From Hyphomicrobium sp. ghe19 (GTDB lineage Bacteria; Pseudomonadota; Alphaproteobacteria; Rhizobiales; Hyphomicrobiaceae), in the NCBI RefSeq assembly GCF_902712875.1, contig NZ_LR743509.1, positions 1,612,001 through 1,676,000 of the forward strand: a stretch of 64,000 bases of DNA. Direction: 5' to 3'. Of the stretch, positions 8,438-16,419 are shown piece after piece. The position numbers and the translations under genes are program-made. Within the stretch, counting starts at the first letter, position 1; every line of letters starts with the position of its first letter. The notes under the pieces were generated by a model, which saw nothing but the letters and a program-made list of their open reading frames with translations, ran no database searches and had not been told where the DNA came from.

Positions 8438-8624
8438 ACAGCGTCCTCGTCAGCGGGGAACGACACACCTGCTTTAGAAAGATGTTTGGCTTATTTTCAA
8501 TTTTACGTTCCCTGCGAGTAATTAAATTTGCGTGCCGCGTGAACGCGCGCAAAGCCTGTTCGTTGACCTGCTGAAGCAACACGCCTAGCGTCGTGGTAGG
8601 GTGTTGATCGTTGATGAGGTTGTC

Positions 8625-10418
8625 ATGACCATCACGTATCGAACTGCCCGGCTCACAGCTGCATTTTTCGGATTGATAACGTTTTTCGCTTCGGCTGTTA
8701 TTGGATTTTCGACGAACGCGCGATCAGCCGATGATGGTCAATGGACACTGCCGGGTAAAAATTATGCTTCAACTCGCTACAGCGAGCTGACGGACATAAC
8801 CTCCGACAATGCCAAGGGTCTGCATCCGGTGTGGACATTTTCTACTGGCGTTCTCGGCGGCCACCAAGGGCAGCCCCTTGTCGTCAACAACACGATGTAC
8901 GTCGTGACCCCCTATCCCAACGTTCTCTACGCTTTCGATTTGACGAAAGACGGCTACCCGCTGAAGTGGAAATACCGTCCGGCAATCAGCTCAAATGCGC
9001 TTGGCGTTGCGTGCTGCGATTCCATCAATCGTGGAGCGTCGTTTGTGGACGGACGGATTATTTACAATTTGCTTGATGGACACACGGTCTGCATCGACGC
9101 GGAAACCGGCAAAGAGATTTGGAAGACGAAGATCGCCGATATGGGGCAAGGCGAAACAACGCCGATGGCTCCTCTTGTGATCAAAGATCGTGTCATCGTC
9201 GGTGCTTCGGGCGGGGAGTTCGGGATTTACGGGTGGCTCAAAGGACTAGACACAAAAACGGGAGAAATCGTCTGGACCGGGCACAACATGGGACCGGATT
9301 CCGACATGTTGGCGAAGCCGGGAACATTCAAGCCGCACTACGTCAAGGACGCAGAAAATATCGGCACCAAGAGCTGGGATGGTGACACTTGGCAAACGGG
9401 CGGTGGGCCCGTCTGGGGCTGGATTTCGTACGACCCCGAACTCGACCTGCTCTATTACGGGTCTGGCAATCCTTCCCCCTATAACGCCGAACAGCGATTG
9501 GGAGACAATAATTGGACCGCCAGCATAATCGCGCGCCGACCGTCCGACGGATCGCTGATCTGGGCCTATCAAGTCACACCACACGACGGCTGGGACTATG
9601 ACGCAACTTCGGCGGTGGTTCTCGCCGACTTGGCTATTGAAGGTCAGCAGAGAAAGGTATTGGTCCAATTCAACAAGAACGGTTTTCAATATACGCTCGA
9701 CCGTGCAACGGGAGAATTGCTGTCGGCAAAGCCGTACGTCGATGTGAATTGGGCGACAAGTGTCGACCTAGCGACAGGGCGTCCCGCGTTCGTTGCGGAT
9801 AAGCAGACGGGGGCCTCGAAGGGCCTCGTTAAAAACGTGTGTCCGAGCCTTGAAGGCGGGGTCAGCCCTGCAGCTCCGCCTGCCTATTCGCCGAAGCTCG
9901 GGTTGTTCTTCACGTCGGTCAATAATCTCTGCATGGATTATGCAGCGACGCCGGCGGCGCGCTTCGCCGGCACGCCATTCATCGGCGGAAACACGCCCTA
10001 CCATGTCGGGCCCGCAGGTAAGAACCTCGGCGGGTTCATTGCTTGGGATGCGGGGAGCGGCAAGCGGGTTTGGGAAACGAAAGAAGAGTTTCTTTCATGG
10101 AGCGGCGCGCTCGTGACAGCCGGTGACGTCGCTTTTTACGGGACGCTCGACGGTTGGTTCAAATCCGTAAACGCCAAGACGGGTGAAGTGCTGTCGAGGT
10201 TTAAAATCGGCTCGGGCATTGTCGGCAACCCGATCACTTATCGCGGCCCTGACGGTAAGCAATACGTCGCGGTTTATGCCGGTATCGGCGGAGACTTGGC
10301 TTTATTTGCCAATGATACCTCAGCTGATGCTACCGACGTGCGCCCGCCCGCCGACTTCATGCCGGACCTCGCACGCCATACGAGTCACGGCGGAATCGTT
10401 TGGATATTCGGTCTTTGA
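8625..10418 (+). CDS. PQQ-dependent alcohol dehydrogenase of the lanthanide type
   Basis: This periplasmic quinoprotein should oxidise an alcohol, passing electrons to the cytochrome c encoded next. Signal peptide at residues 1-34 (ends ARSA). Eight-bladed propeller landmarks: adjacent Cys C130-C131 (VACCDS), metal ligands E198 and N282 (GSGNPSP), catalytic D324 and, two residues later, D326 in WDYD. Established knowledge: that second Asp marks lanthanide-dependent enzymes (XoxF, ExaF/PedH) as opposed to Ca-type MxaF. At 597 residues the length is typical. I prefer ATG 8625, with GAGG 6 bases upstream, over GTG 8601. It is clearly a paralogue of XoxF at 38097 but diverged, so the substrate may not be methanol. 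Confidence 0.88.
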   Translation: MTITYRTARLTAAFFGLITFFASAVIGFSTNARSADDGQWTLPGKNYASTRYSELTDITSDNAKGLHPVWTFSTGVLGGHQGQPLVVNNTMYVVTPYPNVLYAFDLTKDGYPLKWKYRPAISSNALGVACCDSINRGASFVDGRIIYNLLDGHTVCIDAETGKEIWKTKIADMGQGETTPMAPLVIKDRVIVGASGGEFGIYGWLKGLDTKTGEIVWTGHNMGPDSDMLAKPGTFKPHYVKDAENIGTKSWDGDTWQTGGGPVWGWISYDPELDLLYYGSGNPSPYNAEQRLGDNNWTASIIARRPSDGSLIWAYQVTPHDGWDYDATSAVVLADLAIEGQQRKVLVQFNKNGFQYTLDRATGELLSAKPYVDVNWATSVDLATGRPAFVADKQTGASKGLVKNVCPSLEGGVSPAAPPAYSPKLGLFFTSVNNLCMDYAATPAARFAGTPFIGGNTPYHVGPAGKNLGGFIAWDAGSGKRVWETKEEFLSWSGALVTAGDVAFYGTLDGWFKSVNAKTGEVLSRFKIGSGIVGNPITYRGPDGKQYVAVYAGIGGDLALFANDTSADATDVRPPADFMPDLARHTSHGGIVWIFGL

Positions 10419-10457
10419 CGCGGTGGTCGCGCGATGCGATTGAACCGGGAGAAAGCT

Positions 10458-10955
10458 ATGAATAAGACAATCGCACCGGTCGTCGCTGCGGGGGCGATGG
10501 CTTTGTTCGCAATACAGATTGGTTTAGCGACGGCCGCTGACGAAAAAGCGCCCAAGGCTCAATCCGGCACGTCGGAAAACATCCCGCCGGCAATCCGATA
10601 CGAATCTCATATTGCAGCCGGCGGGGCGCCGCCCGTGGGAGGAAAGCTCGTCAATCCTTTTTCCGGCAACAGTAAGGTTGCGGCGGCTGGCGAGCAGATG
10701 TTTTCGGCCATGAACTGTGACGGATGTCACGGTGGAGGAGCGACTGGTTTCGCCGCTCCTAGTCTCGCTGACGGGCGCTGGCGTTATGGCGGCGAAGAGG
10801 ATGAACTTTTTCAGACGATCTATTTCGGCAGACCGAAAGGTATGCCTGCGTTTGGCGGACTGATGTCCGCTGACGACGTATGGACAGTCGTGACTTATCT
10901 CAAATCCCTTCCCGTTCCCGACGACGAGCCAACGGAATCCTGGGTTGGGAAATAA
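10458..10955 (+). CDS. Periplasmic c-type cytochrome, partner of the PQQ dehydrogenase
   Basis: The ATG at 10458 follows GGGAG. A signal peptide (to ATAAD, about residue 27) precedes a linker and one class I cytochrome c domain with heme site CDGCH followed by APSLADGRW. A probable axial Met lies in KGMPAFGG. The C-terminal VVTYLKSLPVP is typical of short soluble electron carriers. It begins 39 bases after the quinoprotein stop, so the two form an operon, and by position it is the electron acceptor. It lacks the long Pro/Ala segment seen in XoxG at 40167. Confidence 0.88.
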   Translation: MNKTIAPVVAAGAMALFAIQIGLATAADEKAPKAQSGTSENIPPAIRYESHIAAGGAPPVGGKLVNPFSGNSKVAAAGEQMFSAMNCDGCHGGGATGFAAPSLADGRWRYGGEEDELFQTIYFGRPKGMPAFGGLMSADDVWTVVTYLKSLPVPDDEPTESWVGK

Positions 10956-11424
10956 TGCGAGAAATGATGCTTTGAAAGGCTGCTGCTCTAGAGCTACGAC
11001 CTCAAAGCCGTGCGTTTAGCCACGACGCGCACGCTTCTTTGCTCGCAATTTCATCGGCTCCGCGTTCAGTTTTTCGTCTTCCAGCCTCGAGACCAAGACG
11101 CAACGGTTGCGCGGCGGCTTTGATGTTGTTACAAAAGTGAGGCGCTAGACGGCTAGCGTCACTCCCATACAATTCCCGGGGACGACCCCATCTCAACTTG
11201 GAGATGGCGGTGTTGCGCGTTTATGCATTGGCCGATTGGCTAGCCTCCTGCTTATCGCGGGAGCGAACGATGCCGGCTAGTTTGCGACGCTACGGCGTGG
11301 CCGATTTAAAATTCCGCATCCTTCGGGGGACCGAGCTGAACCGTCCCGTCATCGGACATTTTGTCGACGCGCCTTACGGATCCCTCTTGCACGAACGGGG
11401 ACGGTGGTATCGCAGGAGGCCGGC
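10956..11424. other. Intergenic region upstream of the LysR gene
   Basis: About 470 bases separate the cytochrome gene from the LysR regulator. A perfect 10-bp palindrome GCTCTAGAGC is at 10985-10994; the same palindrome occurs upstream of the ureohydrolase at 14393-14402. A small frame at 11198-11428 has weak support and is not called. Confidence 0.4.
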
Positions 11425-12375
11425 ATGACATTGCGTCAAAACTTTTGTCTAGATCTGGATTGGAATCTCCTCAAAATATTCTACGGCATCGTGGAAGCGA
11501 ATGGCGTGTCATCCGCTGCAAACGTCTTATGGAGAAAGCAGTCCACGCTTAGCCTCGCCCTCCAAAGGCTTGAAAAGCAACTCGGCAAAACCCTGTGCCA
11601 TCGCGGGCCTGCCGGTTTCGAGCTGACTGATGAGGGACGGATTCTGTACGACTGCGTGAGCGAAGTTTATGCGAAGTTTGACCGCATTCCGGACAGCTTC
11701 GATAATGCATCGAGCGACCTTCGGGGTCGACTTCGACTCTCTACCATTAGCAACTTCATCGACGCGAAATTTGATAAGCTTCTGGTCGCATACAGCACGT
11801 TATGTCCACTTGTTGAACTCCAGATCAAAGTGGCTCCATGGGAAACGGTGTCTTTGGCAGTGCTTCGAAACGAGGTTGATGTAGGTATCACTGCGGTTCA
11901 TACGAAACACACAGAGCTGCGATACGAGTTTCTGACGCGTGAAGTGCATTTAGTGTATTGCGGGAAGCGCCATCACCTTTTCGGGACTTCGGTTGATTCC
12001 GTCGAGTCTTTGTCAGACGAGCCGTTGATTTTAACGGGGGCCGATGAGCCGGACGCTCTGGCCAATTATAGGTTGCGCCACGGGCTTGGGAAACGCATTG
12101 CAGCGTCAACGCCCAATCTGGAAGAGGCAAAGCGGCTCGCCGTTCTCGGATTGGGAGTTTGTCTGCTCCCTGAACGTATGGCTGCAGGAGACGTGAAAAA
12201 GGGAACTCTTCGTCCCCTGACTCCTAAATCGTTGGGCACCGGATGCGATATCTATGCGGTTTCAAACAAGCATGCGCCGAAGCGGCTTGTGACCGAAATC
12301 TTCATGGAAGAAGTGGGCCGGAAGCTCAAGCACGGCGCTCAAATCTTGTCCGAGCAAAAGGACGAGAATCCCTAG
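11425..12375 (+). CDS. LysR-family transcriptional regulator
   Basis: The ATG at 11425 has AGGAGG 7 bases upstream. The N-terminal winged helix-turn-helix is visible as LLKIFYGIVEANGVSSAANVL continued by WRKQSTLSLALQRLEKQLGK, then the family dimerisation helix. The C-terminal effector-binding part (from about residue 95) has the usual LRGRLRLSTIS start and VDVGITAV. It lies between the quinoprotein operon and the permease/ureohydrolase genes, all on the plus strand, and is the only regulator in this block. It is a reasonable candidate to control one or both sides in response to a substrate. The inducer is unknown. Confidence 0.88.
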   Translation: MTLRQNFCLDLDWNLLKIFYGIVEANGVSSAANVLWRKQSTLSLALQRLEKQLGKTLCHRGPAGFELTDEGRILYDCVSEVYAKFDRIPDSFDNASSDLRGRLRLSTISNFIDAKFDKLLVAYSTLCPLVELQIKVAPWETVSLAVLRNEVDVGITAVHTKHTELRYEFLTREVHLVYCGKRHHLFGTSVDSVESLSDEPLILTGADEPDALANYRLRHGLGKRIAASTPNLEEAKRLAVLGLGVCLLPERMAAGDVKKGTLRPLTPKSLGTGCDIYAVSNKHAPKRLVTEIFMEEVGRKLKHGAQILSEQKDENP

Positions 12376-12581: not shown

Positions 12582-14210
12582 ATGTCGGAGATGGCATTAA
12601 CGGCCGCACCGGAAGTGTCCGAATCTACGGGCACGATGCGCCGCACATTGAATTGGAAGCATGCGTTTTGGATTGCGTCCGGCACGCCGGTGCTGGTGCT
12701 GTTCTCTATCGGCGCCGTTGCATCCGCCGCGGGCAATATCTCGTCCGCTGTATGGATGCTGTCGATGCTCATCGGCTTTGTCCAGTGTTTTACTTATGCG
12801 GAAATCTCGGGCCTTTTTCCGAAAAAGTCCGGCGGAGCCTCCGTCTACGGTGCCATTGCCTGGGTTCCCTATGGCAAAATGCTAGGGCCAATTTCTGTTT
12901 GGGCAAACTGGTTCTCTTGGTCGCCCGTTCTCGCGATCGGTTCAGGACTTGCCGCAGGCTACGTCCTAAATCTGCTGTTTCCCGCTGATTCTGTAATCAG
13001 AACTTGGCAGATCACATTATTCGATCTGAACTTCATTAAAGACGGTGTCGTTGTCCGACTCAACGCGACTTTTTTTCTCGGTTTGGCGTTGATGCTCACA
13101 GTTTTCGCGATTCAACATCGCGGAATTTTAAAAGCGGCGCGTGTGCAGATGATTGTCGCCGTCGCTGTGCTGCTGCCGCTTTTGCTGATTGGGATCGTGC
13201 CGCTGATCACGGGTGACGTGCGTTCGGAAAACTTCACGCCCTTTGTGCCTCTTATCCAAAACGCCTCCGGACAGCCAGTAAATGGCGCCTGGGACATGGT
13301 TGGAATCACGACTTTGATGGCCTGTCTGTTGCTGGCAGCGTGGTCAACCTATCCATTCGAGACGGCGGTTTGCTATGTGAGCGAGTTTAAGAACCCGGGA
13401 TACGATACTGTTCGGGCGCTGGTGTATTCTGGCCTGCTATGCATCGCGTTCTACACGCTCGTTCCCATCGCATTTCAAGGATATCTGGGCCTCAACGGTC
13501 TTCTCGACCCAGCAATTTACGATGGCACCGGTGTGGGCAAAGTGATGACCCAGATGATCGGTGCAGGACCCATCCTGGGCAATATCGTCATCGCAACGTT
13601 GACATTATCGATCTGTCTGGTGGTGATGACCGCGATGGCCGGCTCATCACGCACGCTCTATCAAGGTTCCCACGATGGTTGGCTGCCCAAGTATCTCTCG
13701 CGGGTCAATGGTCACGGTGCTCCAGTAGCGGCGATGTGGACGGACCTCGTGTTCAACGCTGCGCTTCTGTCGATATCGGATTACGTTTTTCTCATCGTCC
13801 TCGCTAACACGACCTATATGGTCTTCGTGTTCCTCAATCTGCAGGCCGGATGGCTTCATCGCATTGATCGCCCAAACCAAGAGCGGCCTTATCGTGCACC
13901 GGCTTGGCTGCTGGCCGTAGGCGCAGGCTGTGGCTTCCTCAATCTTCTCATCATGGGTTGGGGTGCGGACTTCTGGGGGCAGCGCGTTCTACTGACCAGT
14001 CTTGTTATCGTTGCTGGTATCATCCCCATTTTTGCCTACCGCCATTATGTGACCGACGGGGGGAGTTTCCCGCGTTGGATGCAAGATGACCTGGAGGAAA
14101 GAGGCAAGCCAATCGCTCGTCGCGCCGGCCTGTTGCCTTACATAACGTTACTTGCTGGCGGTTTGACGATCTACGCCGGACACCTACTGGCGGCTTACAA
14201 TCAACCTTGA
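12582..14210 (+). CDS. APC-superfamily amino acid/amine permease
   Basis: This is a 542-residue polytopic inner-membrane protein with about 12 hydrophobic segments. The first helix region contains the family glycine motif near FWIASGTPVLVLFSIGAVAS and the SAVWMLSMLIGF stretch. TM6-type unwound sequence appears near WSTYPFETAVCYVSEFKNP, and TM8 near LTLSICLVVMTAMAGSSRTLYQ. The ATG follows AGGGAGA by 4 bases. APC permeases carry amino acids, polyamines or guanidino compounds. Position ahead of a ureohydrolase and nickel permease suggests a guanidino or amino substrate, which is inference only. Confidence 0.82.
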   Translation: MSEMALTAAPEVSESTGTMRRTLNWKHAFWIASGTPVLVLFSIGAVASAAGNISSAVWMLSMLIGFVQCFTYAEISGLFPKKSGGASVYGAIAWVPYGKMLGPISVWANWFSWSPVLAIGSGLAAGYVLNLLFPADSVIRTWQITLFDLNFIKDGVVVRLNATFFLGLALMLTVFAIQHRGILKAARVQMIVAVAVLLPLLLIGIVPLITGDVRSENFTPFVPLIQNASGQPVNGAWDMVGITTLMACLLLAAWSTYPFETAVCYVSEFKNPGYDTVRALVYSGLLCIAFYTLVPIAFQGYLGLNGLLDPAIYDGTGVGKVMTQMIGAGPILGNIVIATLTLSICLVVMTAMAGSSRTLYQGSHDGWLPKYLSRVNGHGAPVAAMWTDLVFNAALLSISDYVFLIVLANTTYMVFVFLNLQAGWLHRIDRPNQERPYRAPAWLLAVGAGCGFLNLLIMGWGADFWGQRVLLTSLVIVAGIIPIFAYRHYVTDGGSFPRWMQDDLEERGKPIARRAGLLPYITLLAGGLTIYAGHLLAAYNQP

Positions 14211-14554: not shown

Positions 14555-15781
14555 ATGACCGACGATAGGAAGAGTGGTGATGGCGGCGGCCACCACAAGC
14601 ACAGACATCATCTACATGGGGTGAAACGCGAAGATACGCATGGCGCGAAGAGCATGGAGACGTTGTCTCGCATCTCCCAGATCAAGCAGGACGAAGAAGT
14701 GTCTCGATCACTTCAGTACGGGCTCGAGGCGGCCTCATCCGTCGTCGATCGCAACATCTCGTTGTTCAGCCGTGGCCATCAGCCGGCGTTCGCCGGCATC
14801 AATACCTTCATGAAGGCGCCGTACTGCGAAGACATCCGCAAGATCGGCGACTACCAGGCGGCTTTTGTCGGCGCGCCCTTCGACTCGGCGACGACCTACA
14901 GGCCCGGTACGCGCTTTGGGCCGCAAGCCGTTCGCCGGATCTCGGCGCTCTACGACGGCTACTGGTTCGATGGCGGTGTCGATATCTATGAGGAACTCGA
15001 TCTCTGCGACGCCGGCGACATCTTCGTCATTCCGGGCAACATCGAGAAGACGTTCGACCAGGTGACGAAGGCCGTTTCGCACATTTACACGTCGGGCGTT
15101 TTCCCGATCATCTGCGGCGGCGATCACAGCTTGGGCTTCCCCAACGTGCGGGGCATTGCTCCGCATATCGACGGCAATGTCGGCATCATCCACATCGACC
15201 GGCACATCGATATCCAAGAGAAGGATATGGATGAGCGTATGCACACGACGCCTTGGTTCTGGACGACGAACGAGGGAACGCACACCTCGCATCGCGACCA
15301 TAGCCACATGCACGATGTCGGTTTGCCCAACTGCCATCCGAAGAATCTCGTGCAGATCGGCATCGGCGGCTGGTACGGCAATCGTCCGGGAACGGCGGTT
15401 GCGAAGCGCCGCGGAACGAGCGTGCTGACGATGCACGACGTGCAGCATTTCGGCCCGAAGAAGGCCGCCGAAATTGCGCTCGAGATGGCCTGGGAAGGCT
15501 GCAAGGCGGTCTACCTGTCGTTCGATATCGACTCGATCGATCCGGGGTTTGCACCCGGCACCGGTTCGCCGGAGCCCGGCGGGCTGCTGCCGCGCGAAGC
15601 TTTCGAGATGATCCACACGATCGCAGCCGAAGGCTTATGCGGCATGGAAGTCGTCGAGGTGTCGCCGCCGTACGACGTCAACGACAACACCGCGCAGCTC
15701 GCCTGCCGGGTCGTGCTCGATGTGCTTGGAACTCTGGTGGCGAATGGCAAGCTCGGCCATCGCAGCAAAGTCATGAAATAG
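14555..15781 (+). CDS. Ureohydrolase (agmatinase family), candidate nickel-dependent guanidine hydrolase
   Basis: Ureohydrolases cleave guanidino groups to urea with a two-metal centre. The metal ligands are present: GGDHS (H191), D215-R-H217-I-D219, and SFDIDSIDP (D324, D326). The usual Ala between the first Asp and His is Arg here (HIDRHID), followed by DERMHTTPWF, a variant I associate with cyanobacterial-type guanidine hydrolases, not agmatinases. Unusually, residues 13-21 hold six His (HHKHRHHLH) and residues 243-253 another five, resembling nickel-binding His tracts. Eleven bases downstream is a HupE/UreJ nickel permease. ATG 14555 has GAAGGGA upstream. Agmatinase or another ureohydrolase specificity remains possible. 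Confidence 0.85.
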   Translation: MTDDRKSGDGGGHHKHRHHLHGVKREDTHGAKSMETLSRISQIKQDEEVSRSLQYGLEAASSVVDRNISLFSRGHQPAFAGINTFMKAPYCEDIRKIGDYQAAFVGAPFDSATTYRPGTRFGPQAVRRISALYDGYWFDGGVDIYEELDLCDAGDIFVIPGNIEKTFDQVTKAVSHIYTSGVFPIICGGDHSLGFPNVRGIAPHIDGNVGIIHIDRHIDIQEKDMDERMHTTPWFWTTNEGTHTSHRDHSHMHDVGLPNCHPKNLVQIGIGGWYGNRPGTAVAKRRGTSVLTMHDVQHFGPKKAAEIALEMAWEGCKAVYLSFDIDSIDPGFAPGTGSPEPGGLLPREAFEMIHTIAAEGLCGMEVVEVSPPYDVNDNTAQLACRVVLDVLGTLVANGKLGHRSKVMK

Positions 15782-15792
15782 GAGGGCGTACG

Positions 15793-16419
15793 ATGAGACA
15801 TTCACGCGTGCAAAACGTTCTAAAGGCCATCGGCGCGGGCTCGATCCTGATGGTGGTTGCGGCCGCTCCAGCCTCGGCTCACGTCGGGCTCGGTGCGGTC
15901 CACACGTTCAGTCAGGGCTTTCTGCATCCGATGAGCGGCATCGACCATATCATCGCAATGGTGGCGGTCGGCCTTTATGCAGCGAAGCTTGGCGGACGGG
16001 CGCTTTGGCTCGTACCATTGGCATTTGTCGGCACAATGATCTTCGGCGGCGTGTTGGGTTACTATGGGTGGCCGCTGCCCATGGTCGAGGCTGGCATCGG
16101 CCTTTCAGTTGTCGTCATGAGCATGGCAATCGCTCTTGGTGTGCGCCTGCCAACCGTTGCGGCGATGACGCTTGTCGGAACCTTTGCACTTTTCCACGGG
16201 CACGCGCACGGCAATGAAGGTGCAGGCCTCGCCATTGCATTCTTGCCGTACGCAGTTGGCTTTGTCGTCGCGACGGCCCTGCTTCACGCTTCTGGACTCG
16301 CTCTCGGGGCCAGCTTCAATCGCCTCGGCGCAGCGCAATCGAGCCTTTTGAATAAGATTGCGGGCAGCTTCGGGACGATTGCTGGAATATCCCTATTAAT
16401 GGGGCTTCTGGCAGCCTAG
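15793..16419 (+). CDS. HupE/UreJ family nickel (cobalt) permease
   Basis: The protein has 208 residues and about seven hydrophobic segments, preceded by a cleavable-looking signal (MVVAAAPASAH). Family signatures are visible: the start of the mature part (HVGLG), then GFLHPMSGIDHIIAMVAVG, with the metal-binding HPxxGxDH, and a later TFALFHGHAHGNE. Members import Ni2+ or Co2+ and usually sit beside urease or hydrogenase genes. Neither occurs here; the immediate neighbour is the His-rich ureohydrolase, 11 bases upstream. The natural reading is that the permease supplies nickel for that enzyme. Confidence 0.9.
   Translation: MRHSRVQNVLKAIGAGSILMVVAAAPASAHVGLGAVHTFSQGFLHPMSGIDHIIAMVAVGLYAAKLGGRALWLVPLAFVGTMIFGGVLGYYGWPLPMVEAGIGLSVVVMSMAIALGVRLPTVAAMTLVGTFALFHGHAHGNEGAGLAIAFLPYAVGFVVATALLHASGLALGASFNRLGAAQSSLLNKIAGSFGTIAGISLLMGLLAA

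Follow-up and report, generated by a model that had tools for sequence, protein, structure and literature searches.

The subject of this analysis is a window of 64,000 nucleotides from the genome of the soil methylotroph Hyphomicrobium sp. ghe19 (one contig of 4.6 Mb; NZ_LR743509.1, positions 1,612,001 to 1,676,000), in which a ureohydrolase gene and a gene for a HupE/UreJ permease follow each other at positions 14555 to 16419. This HupE–ureohydrolase module is real. Its enzyme falls into a clade that is sister to the nickel-dependent guanidinases and is itself likely to use nickel, because nickel permeases recur beside the genes of its relatives. We tentatively suggest that it may be a nickel-dependent hydrolase of small N-alkylguanidines, N-methylguanidine being the first candidate, which would be split into an alkylamine and urea. 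A sequence-only reading of the same DNA had proposed a self-supplied nickel ureohydrolase acting on guanidine or a related compound; the coordinates and features on which it was built were all found where it had placed them, and of the two kinds of substrate it named, the "related compound" is to be preferred.

The comparison comprised 84 sequences, namely the best 80 of at least 563 confirmed relatives, both copies of the enzyme in the source genome, and the two characterised guanidinases of Synechocystis and N. inopinata. Group A, the sister clade, has 20 rows (18 named loci and both source-genome copies, 71-97% identical), group B consists of 11 mostly actinobacterial loci, and the canonical group C has 53 rows (51 loci and the two characterised guanidinases). 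A tree was computed by a quick method from 60 of the 84 rows (24 were left out) and three outgroups, after the insertion loop and the gate position, described below, had been removed; branch support was determined by the Shimodaira-Hasegawa-like approximate likelihood ratio test (SH-aLRT). Groups A and C each formed one clade (SH-aLRT 99 each), and the canonical clade, including both characterised guanidinases, excludes the window enzyme, whose clade is its sister (SH-aLRT 99).

The open reading frame (ORF) of the ureohydrolase starts at the ATG at position 14555, encodes 408 residues and matches the Pfam family Arginase (PF00491) at 2.2e-74. Its closest solved structures by sequence are the guanidinases of Synechocystis and N. 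inopinata (about 1e-130; 58% and 56% identity), followed by a guanidinobutyrase at 1.3e-45; in the sequence search, the structures of guanidinobutyrase, guanidinopropionase and agmatinase are distant. For the predicted structure, the mean predicted local distance difference test score (pLDDT) is 74.6 and the predicted template modelling score 0.80, and a fold search with this model returned 9fek and 7esr as best PDB matches and then metformin hydrolases. Thus, the phylogeny that the sequence-only reading had asked for, as well as the sequence and fold searches, puts the enzyme next to the nickel guanidinases and far from the agmatinases. An agmatinase identity was rejected, as the scores stay below the cut-offs (TIGR01230, 153 versus 174.3 bits; NF002564, 195.8 versus 302). 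The enzyme is encoded by a single gene; an alpha/beta pair with a degenerate beta subunit, as in the DmgH/MefH type, was not seen. The other ureohydrolases found in the source genome are one copy with 97% identity and one arginase-family protein with 37%.

All six ligands of the dinuclear metal site are intact, as had been claimed (H191, D215, H217, D219, D324, D326). The arginine in the D-x-H-x-D motif is likewise present, but it is not the peculiarity for which it had been taken: All 42 aligned rows share it (P0001 is counted, L042 was set aside due to ambiguous bases), as do both characterised guanidinases, and it was dropped as an oddity. The equivalents of Thr105, His222 and Glu344 (N. 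inopinata numbering) are retained throughout the 84 rows; the first two correspond to T114 and H230 of the window enzyme. The groups differ at the position of the gate residue Trp313. A tryptophan is found in all 53 rows of group C and in none of the 20 rows of group A, which have serine (11 rows, among them the window enzyme with Ser338) or threonine (9 rows); group B has serine in 11 of 11 rows. According to the accessible text of PMC11410670, Thr97 and Trp305 determine the guanidine specificity of the Synechocystis enzyme, the tryptophan was required for a guanidinase call, and centroids without both Thr105 and Trp313 were classed as "inferred not guanidinase" and given no function. The window enzyme lacks this published defining residue (Trp313/Trp305) and is therefore not to be filed as a guanidinase; despite its serine, it may work like one. 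For the N. inopinata enzyme, the same text reports that alternative guanidino substrates yielded no urea, apart from very small amounts with agmatine. Its assay list includes methylguanidine, although the corresponding results sentence prints "methylguanine" (PMC11410670).

A further property of group A is an insertion of at least 14 residues, which directly follows the segment of the catalytic histidine (His222 equivalent). In the window enzyme, it accommodates the second His cluster recognised earlier, five histidines between residues 243 and 253. Ten positions are identical in 20 of 20 group A rows (H246, H249, H251, M252, H253, D254, G256, L257, N259, C260). This constancy argues for a structural, metal-related or substrate-related role of the loop, rather than for loose metal storage; its location just after the catalytic histidine is read from the sequence. 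The model is not informative with respect to the position of the loop, because its confidence is low in exactly those parts: pLDDT is below 50 at residues 1-27, 112-119, 224-233, 235-255 and 332-340, which cover the N-terminal tract, the His-rich loop and the active-site loops that carry the catalytic histidine and the gate. The N-terminal His tract (HHKHRHHLH), which does contain the six histidines counted previously, is confined to a Hyphomicrobium-like sub-clade, i.e. to L033-L038 (6 of 18 named group A loci) and both source-genome copies, and its sequence differs between these two copies. The idea that the tract simply replaces HypA/HypB was rejected, as there is no clean trade-off: HypA is present in two tract-bearing genomes (L034, L037), and eight of the 12 tract-less named group A genomes are devoid of HypA.

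As the sequence-only reading had noted, the permease gene starts eleven bases past the stop codon of the ureohydrolase; an AGGAGG precedes this start at 15793. Its product scores 172 bits against a PF04955 cut-off of 23 (9.2e-51), and its family predicts the transport of nickel (or cobalt). Within 3 kb of the enzyme gene, HupE was found at 6 of 20 and a NicO-like protein at 5 of 20 group A loci, i.e. 11 of 20 have either one. The NicO-like calls rest partly on an HxxxxDH-type motif, which is linked to nickel permeases, and the five neighbours, L050 included, can be aligned with one another along most of the sequence. Such recurrence of nickel permeases is good, if indirect, evidence that nickel is used. 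Two of the 11 group B loci have a NicO protein, both above the Pfam cut-off; group C has HupE at 13 of 51 and NicO-like proteins at 2 of 51 loci. HupE also follows the enzyme in the further relatives L118 and L119, which belong to other genera. According to the available parts of the literature, the nearest characterised guanidinases and DmgH/MefH require nickel, and HupE comes after the published metformin hydrolase (MefH) operon (PMC11399263).

A small His-rich protein is encoded just downstream of 24 of 51 canonical guanidinases (e.g. L064:11196-11729, L067:11216-11722, and 22 others), with HupE nearby in nine of these 24 cases. Two examples gave no match in Pfam; the protein is possibly a nickel store or a chaperone acting in trans.

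For 50 of the 80 loci, among them all 18 named group A loci, the genomes (several of them metagenome bins) were searched for HypA and DmgH. No HypA was found in the source genome, which has two detected HupE genes, one beside each enzyme copy. A search for the CobW/HypB/UreG family had no match inside the window, in agreement with the earlier statement that no urease is nearby (for hydrogenase genes, which the same statement calls absent, no directed search was made); a urease accessory cluster with UreG, and with genes which we take from their sequence to be UreD, UreF and UreE, is located elsewhere in the genome. The epithet "self-supplied" is plausible for the module, but HupE could also feed the urease of the genome. 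How the N. inopinata guanidinase, which contained one nickel and one manganese, is loaded with nickel without chaperones is called unclear in the accessible part of the literature.

Relatives of the alpha subunit of DmgH are associated with group A. Five of the 18 group A genomes have one, compared with none of the 32 others (Fisher test, 0.004). Among 397 genomes drawn separately from the order, they were present in two of six group A-like carriers, which were assigned by an identity of 76% or more and not by the gate residue, versus two of 391 others; none of the 37 canonical carriers of this draw had one. In the Rhodospirillales bin L039, the gene order is hypB, hypA, DmgH/MefH alpha, beta, and group A enzyme; the alpha subunit matches 8ryi_B at 1.5e-195 and has a serine at the gate position. 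The group A hosts include Hyphomicrobium, Methyloceanibacter, and Aminobacter, which are methylotrophs; methylamine serves methylotrophs as food.

The groups were also compared with respect to guanidine riboswitches, at all 18 named group A loci, at seven of the 51 canonical loci and at four of the 11 loci of group B. A guanidine-I riboswitch was found at 7 of 7 canonical loci, whereas none of the 18 named group A loci has a guanidine riboswitch above the gathering score; in group B, there is a guanidine-III match at one of the four loci, on the other strand. Note that the sequence upstream of the enzyme is short at some loci, namely less than 1.3 kb for L040 and for L050, 4.2 kb for L046, and 3.4 kb for L038, where a LysR ORF begins 175 bases from the contig end; a riboswitch or permease lying beyond the contig would escape. 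The region of the second copy in the source genome gave no guanidine riboswitch at E-values up to 1. In the window, a guanidine-II aptamer lies 3.4 kb ahead of the ureohydrolase gene; it was not part of the sequence-only reading and is conserved at the same site in the sister genome (32.5 bits). Among eight further loci of relatives, an aptamer is present at the sister-genome counterpart of the window, and the aptamer in L119 faces a different gene. A competing hairpin overlapping the second aptamer stem, P2, was predicted; no clear signalling mechanism follows from it. In the accessible text of PMC12508155, the guanidine-II riboswitch of V. boliviensis responds to guanidine and methylguanidine only.

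Directly behind guanidine-II aptamers, Hyphomicrobium and relatives encode a family of small proteins of 82-95 residues (L119:3705-3992, L151, L152:1619-1867, L154), most of which carry the motifs D-E-W-G-R-x-Y-R-Y and P-P-G-I-I-Y-R-M; three of these four aptamers are just under the gathering score. The short ORF behind the aptamer of the window is a relative of this family, and its stop overlaps the start of the LysR gene. A start at 11204 was dropped, as GGAG abuts the ATG and a frameshift breaks the frame in the sister genome; this longer reading (11204-11425) had no Pfam or NCBIfam match, and neither the L119 member nor the short ORF of the window had a significant one. Since relatives of the small protein lie behind four other aptamers, the aptamer of the window may belong to the short ORF, and we doubt that it controls the enzyme.

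Guanidine-II matches (E-values up to 0.05) occur in 22 of 22 genomes of the genus, above the cut-off in 21. In the source genome, a guanidine-II riboswitch also precedes an operon (L128:5648-15440) that encodes UAAP1/UAAP2, allophanate hydrolase and an enzyme of the urea carboxylase family; genes for a TIGR03427 binding protein and for an ABC transporter lie upstream of these. Asp699 of the carboxylase is near the position that, according to the available text of PMC11410670, separates guanidine carboxylase from urea carboxylase; the register is approximate. The presence of this guanidine-carboxylase-type operon suggests that guanidine itself is probably handled by another route in this organism.

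Combining these findings, we propose the following scheme. HupE would bring nickel for the partner ureohydrolase, whose active site would be opened by Ser or Thr in place of the gate Trp and is followed by the His-rich loop, which might constitute an extra metal site or a substrate-gating site. An N-alkylguanidinium ion would be imported by the adjoining permease of the APC family or by the ABC transporter beside the second copy, and hydrolysed to alkylamine and urea (methylamine and urea in the case of methylguanidine); urease and methylamine/C1 metabolism could take up the products. Of this scheme, the sequence relationships, the residue change, the loop, the order of the genes, the riboswitch and the co-occurrence patterns are observed, whereas the active-site nickel, the identity of the substrate, the transport roles, and the roles of tract and loop are what we infer. 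A small alkylguanidine, with methylguanidine first, appears to be the most likely substrate, and this assignment is made with reservation. With still more reserve, the whole of group A might be regarded as a family of methylguanidine (N-alkylguanidine) hydrolases, characterised by nickel, an open gate and the His loop, and supplied through HupE or NicO-like permeases wherever chaperones of the HypA/HypB type are lacking.

Several observations weigh against this proposal. Nine of 20 group A loci have no nickel permease within 3 kb. Among the five NicO-like neighbours, only that of L050 passes the Pfam NicO cut-off; those of L046 and L047 match NicO below it (L046 passes DsbD_2), and those of L035 and L042 have no Pfam NicO match. 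Of the 18 named group A genomes, six have HypA, compared with 10 of 32 others. As group A is a single branch, the co-occurrence with DmgH is one evolutionary contrast and not a series of independent events; moreover, adjacency was seen at L039 alone among the loci read, and no match to DmgH alpha was found in the source genome. Methylotroph genera are also represented in group C; an example is the methylotroph Methylopila. In the available parts of the literature, metformin hydrolase is inactive on dimethylguanidine according to one group and weakly active according to another. Finally, a guanidine riboswitch upstream in the window can point to guanidine, and the small gate residues of other ureohydrolases make a larger substrate possible.

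The alternatives can be judged by the same data. It is somewhat unlikely that the enzyme is a true nickel guanidinase converting guanidine to urea and ammonia, in which Ser338 and the His loop alter only access or metal loading. The identity of 56-58% to both characterised guanidinases, the kept equivalents of Thr105, His222 and Glu344, the aptamer of the window with its counterpart in the sister genome, and the order of APC permease and enzyme, which resembles that described in the accessible text for comammox Nitrospira, are in agreement with this function. However, Trp313 is replaced, riboswitches above the threshold are present at 0 of 18 named group A loci versus 7 of 7 canonical loci tested, the short ORF may be what the aptamer of the window serves, and the genome has a carboxylase-type operon with a guanidine-II riboswitch of its own. 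The sequence-only reading is supported in part: a nickel ureohydrolase is likely, as the enzyme adjoins the nickel guanidinases and the permease recurs, whereas guanidine itself is doubtful as the substrate in view of the serine at the gate, of Ser or Thr in 20 of 20 group A rows, and of the riboswitch count.

That the substrate is larger, be it agmatine, guanidinobutyrate, guanidinoacetate or a creatine-like guanidino compound, is less probable. The threonine at the gate of the 37% arginase-family paralogue and the serine in 11 of 11 actinobacterial and similar relatives would allow it, as would ORFs near some group A members which we presume from their sequence to be sarcosine oxidase alpha-like (L045) and M24/creatinase-like (L042, L049); the enzyme is, however, far from the structures of guanidinobutyrase, guanidinopropionase and agmatinase, the linkage to nickel permeases suits guanidine or alkylguanidine enzymes, and none of the seven window ORFs searched in Pfam and NCBIfam is of such a kind. 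Least probable of all is an ordinary manganese ureohydrolase whose adjoining HupE serves the urease. The genome has a urease accessory cluster, urease would be required for a urea product, both HupE genes detected in the genome adjoin enzyme copies, and the N. inopinata enzyme contained one manganese ion besides nickel (available text); against this explanation speak the HupE or NicO-like genes beside relatives in many genomes and the nickel requirement reported for the nearest characterised enzymes and for DmgH/MefH. An alkylguanidine-splitting nickel enzyme is the reading to which we adhere, with the caution expressed above.

Features of the locus around positions 14555 to 16419 of the window
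Feature	Position	Strand	Basis or remark
Guanidine-II (mini-ykkC) riboswitch aptamer	11141..11190	+	RF01068, 32.9 bits versus gathering score 32; both ACGR loops intact
Short ORF, 52 aa	11270..11428	+	shorter relative of an uncharacterised protein of 82-95 aa
LysR-type regulator	11425..12375	+	ATG at 11425 preceded by AGGAGG; Pfam PF03466/PF00126
APC-family permease	12582..14210	+	NCBIfam NF053774 (trimethylamine N-oxide permease), 841 bits versus cut-off 690
Ureohydrolase, sister clade of Ni-dependent guanidinases	14555..15781	+	sequence, tree, fold search
N-terminal His tract, residues 13-21 of the ureohydrolase	14591..14617	+	sequence
Segment with clade-specific loop insertion, residues 236-260	15260..15334	+	contains HxxHxHMHDxGLxNC
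Ser338 codon of the ureohydrolase	15566..15568	+	alignment position of gate Trp305/Trp313 in the characterised guanidinases
HupE/UreJ nickel/cobalt permease	15793..16419	+	Pfam PF04955

The APC-family permease is the probable importer of the substrate. Such a permease is also found immediately before the enzyme in Aminobacter ciceronei (L038), and near the enzyme but on the opposite strand in L118. Its NCBIfam name was rejected as evidence for a substrate, as six proteins of the source genome pass the same cut-off, a seventh relative having an in-frame stop; this "TMAO permease" family seems to be expanded in the genome, with six places including 12582-14210. A fold search detected no structural relatives of the APC permease and only weak ones of the ABC binding protein. 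LysR genes also lie upstream at several other group A loci. Just upstream of the riboswitch, at 8601-10955, the window encodes a pyrroloquinoline quinone-dependent alcohol dehydrogenase (TIGR03075 above the cut-off) followed by a cytochrome c. A search of plasmids matched 11 records, all below 60% identity.

The second copy of the module (L004 12574-14438, compared with 14555-16419 of the window) is located 0.3 Mb away and has its own HupE, ABC transporter and LysR gene. The enzyme cores of the two copies are 98% identical in the source genome and 97% in the sister genome, versus 93% between the species. The relation is reversed for the N-terminal tract (88-98% from species to species versus 52-57% between copies) and for the second half of hupE (86-90% versus 61-65%). 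Repeated gene conversion of the core, i.e. concerted evolution, would leave such a pattern. Beside the second copy (L004:14540-16933), there are genes which we assume from their sequence to be truncated-haemoglobin-like, nitronate-monooxygenase-like, and Rrf2-like; similar genes flank guanidine-II units in L152 and L154.

Within the class published as "inferred not guanidinase", group A is defined here by a residue signature, and a candidate substrate is proposed for it. If the proposal is true, methylotrophs such as Hyphomicrobium would gain carbon and nitrogen from methylated guanidines hydrolytically, by a route not found in the literature searched, and the splitting of methylguanidine would be a new nitrogen-scavenging reaction. 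In the available parts of the literature, no report of methylguanidine hydrolysis by a ureohydrolase was found; human AGMAT as well as DmgH and MefH (for the latter two, PMC11399263) are reported to be inactive on this compound, and its published route is oxidative demethylation (PMC12508155). The module also bears on the delivery of nickel to such enzymes without chaperones.

Among the known systems, GdmH (Synechocystis Sll1077, 7OI1/7ESR) and the N. inopinata guanidinase (9FEK) are closest, having in common with the window enzyme the fold family, the metal ligands, DRHxD, and the three conserved active-site residues; the window enzyme differs by the gate serine, the invariant-His insertion and the separate clade, and it is paired with HupE, whereas GdmH of Synechocystis is paired with GhaA/GhaB. 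The comammox locus consists of a guanidine-I riboswitch, an APC permease and the guanidinase, and no nickel chaperone was found for it in the accessible text; the window is similar with respect to the permease before the enzyme, but has a guanidine-II aptamer, a LysR gene in between and HupE behind. DmgH and MefH (8RYI, 8SNF, 8X3G) are likewise nickel ureohydrolases, with a small gate residue in the L039 relative and, as far as the available text of the MefH operon goes, with HupE behind; in contrast to the single gene of the window, they form hetero-hexamers of alpha and beta subunits, and their operon includes HypA/HypB; local BLAST gives an identity of about 33% between the window enzyme and the DmgH alpha subunit of L039. 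The permease, finally, resembles the HupE/UreJ nickel permeases in exceeding the PF04955 cut-off, and its partner is a ureohydrolase rather than a hydrogenase or urease.

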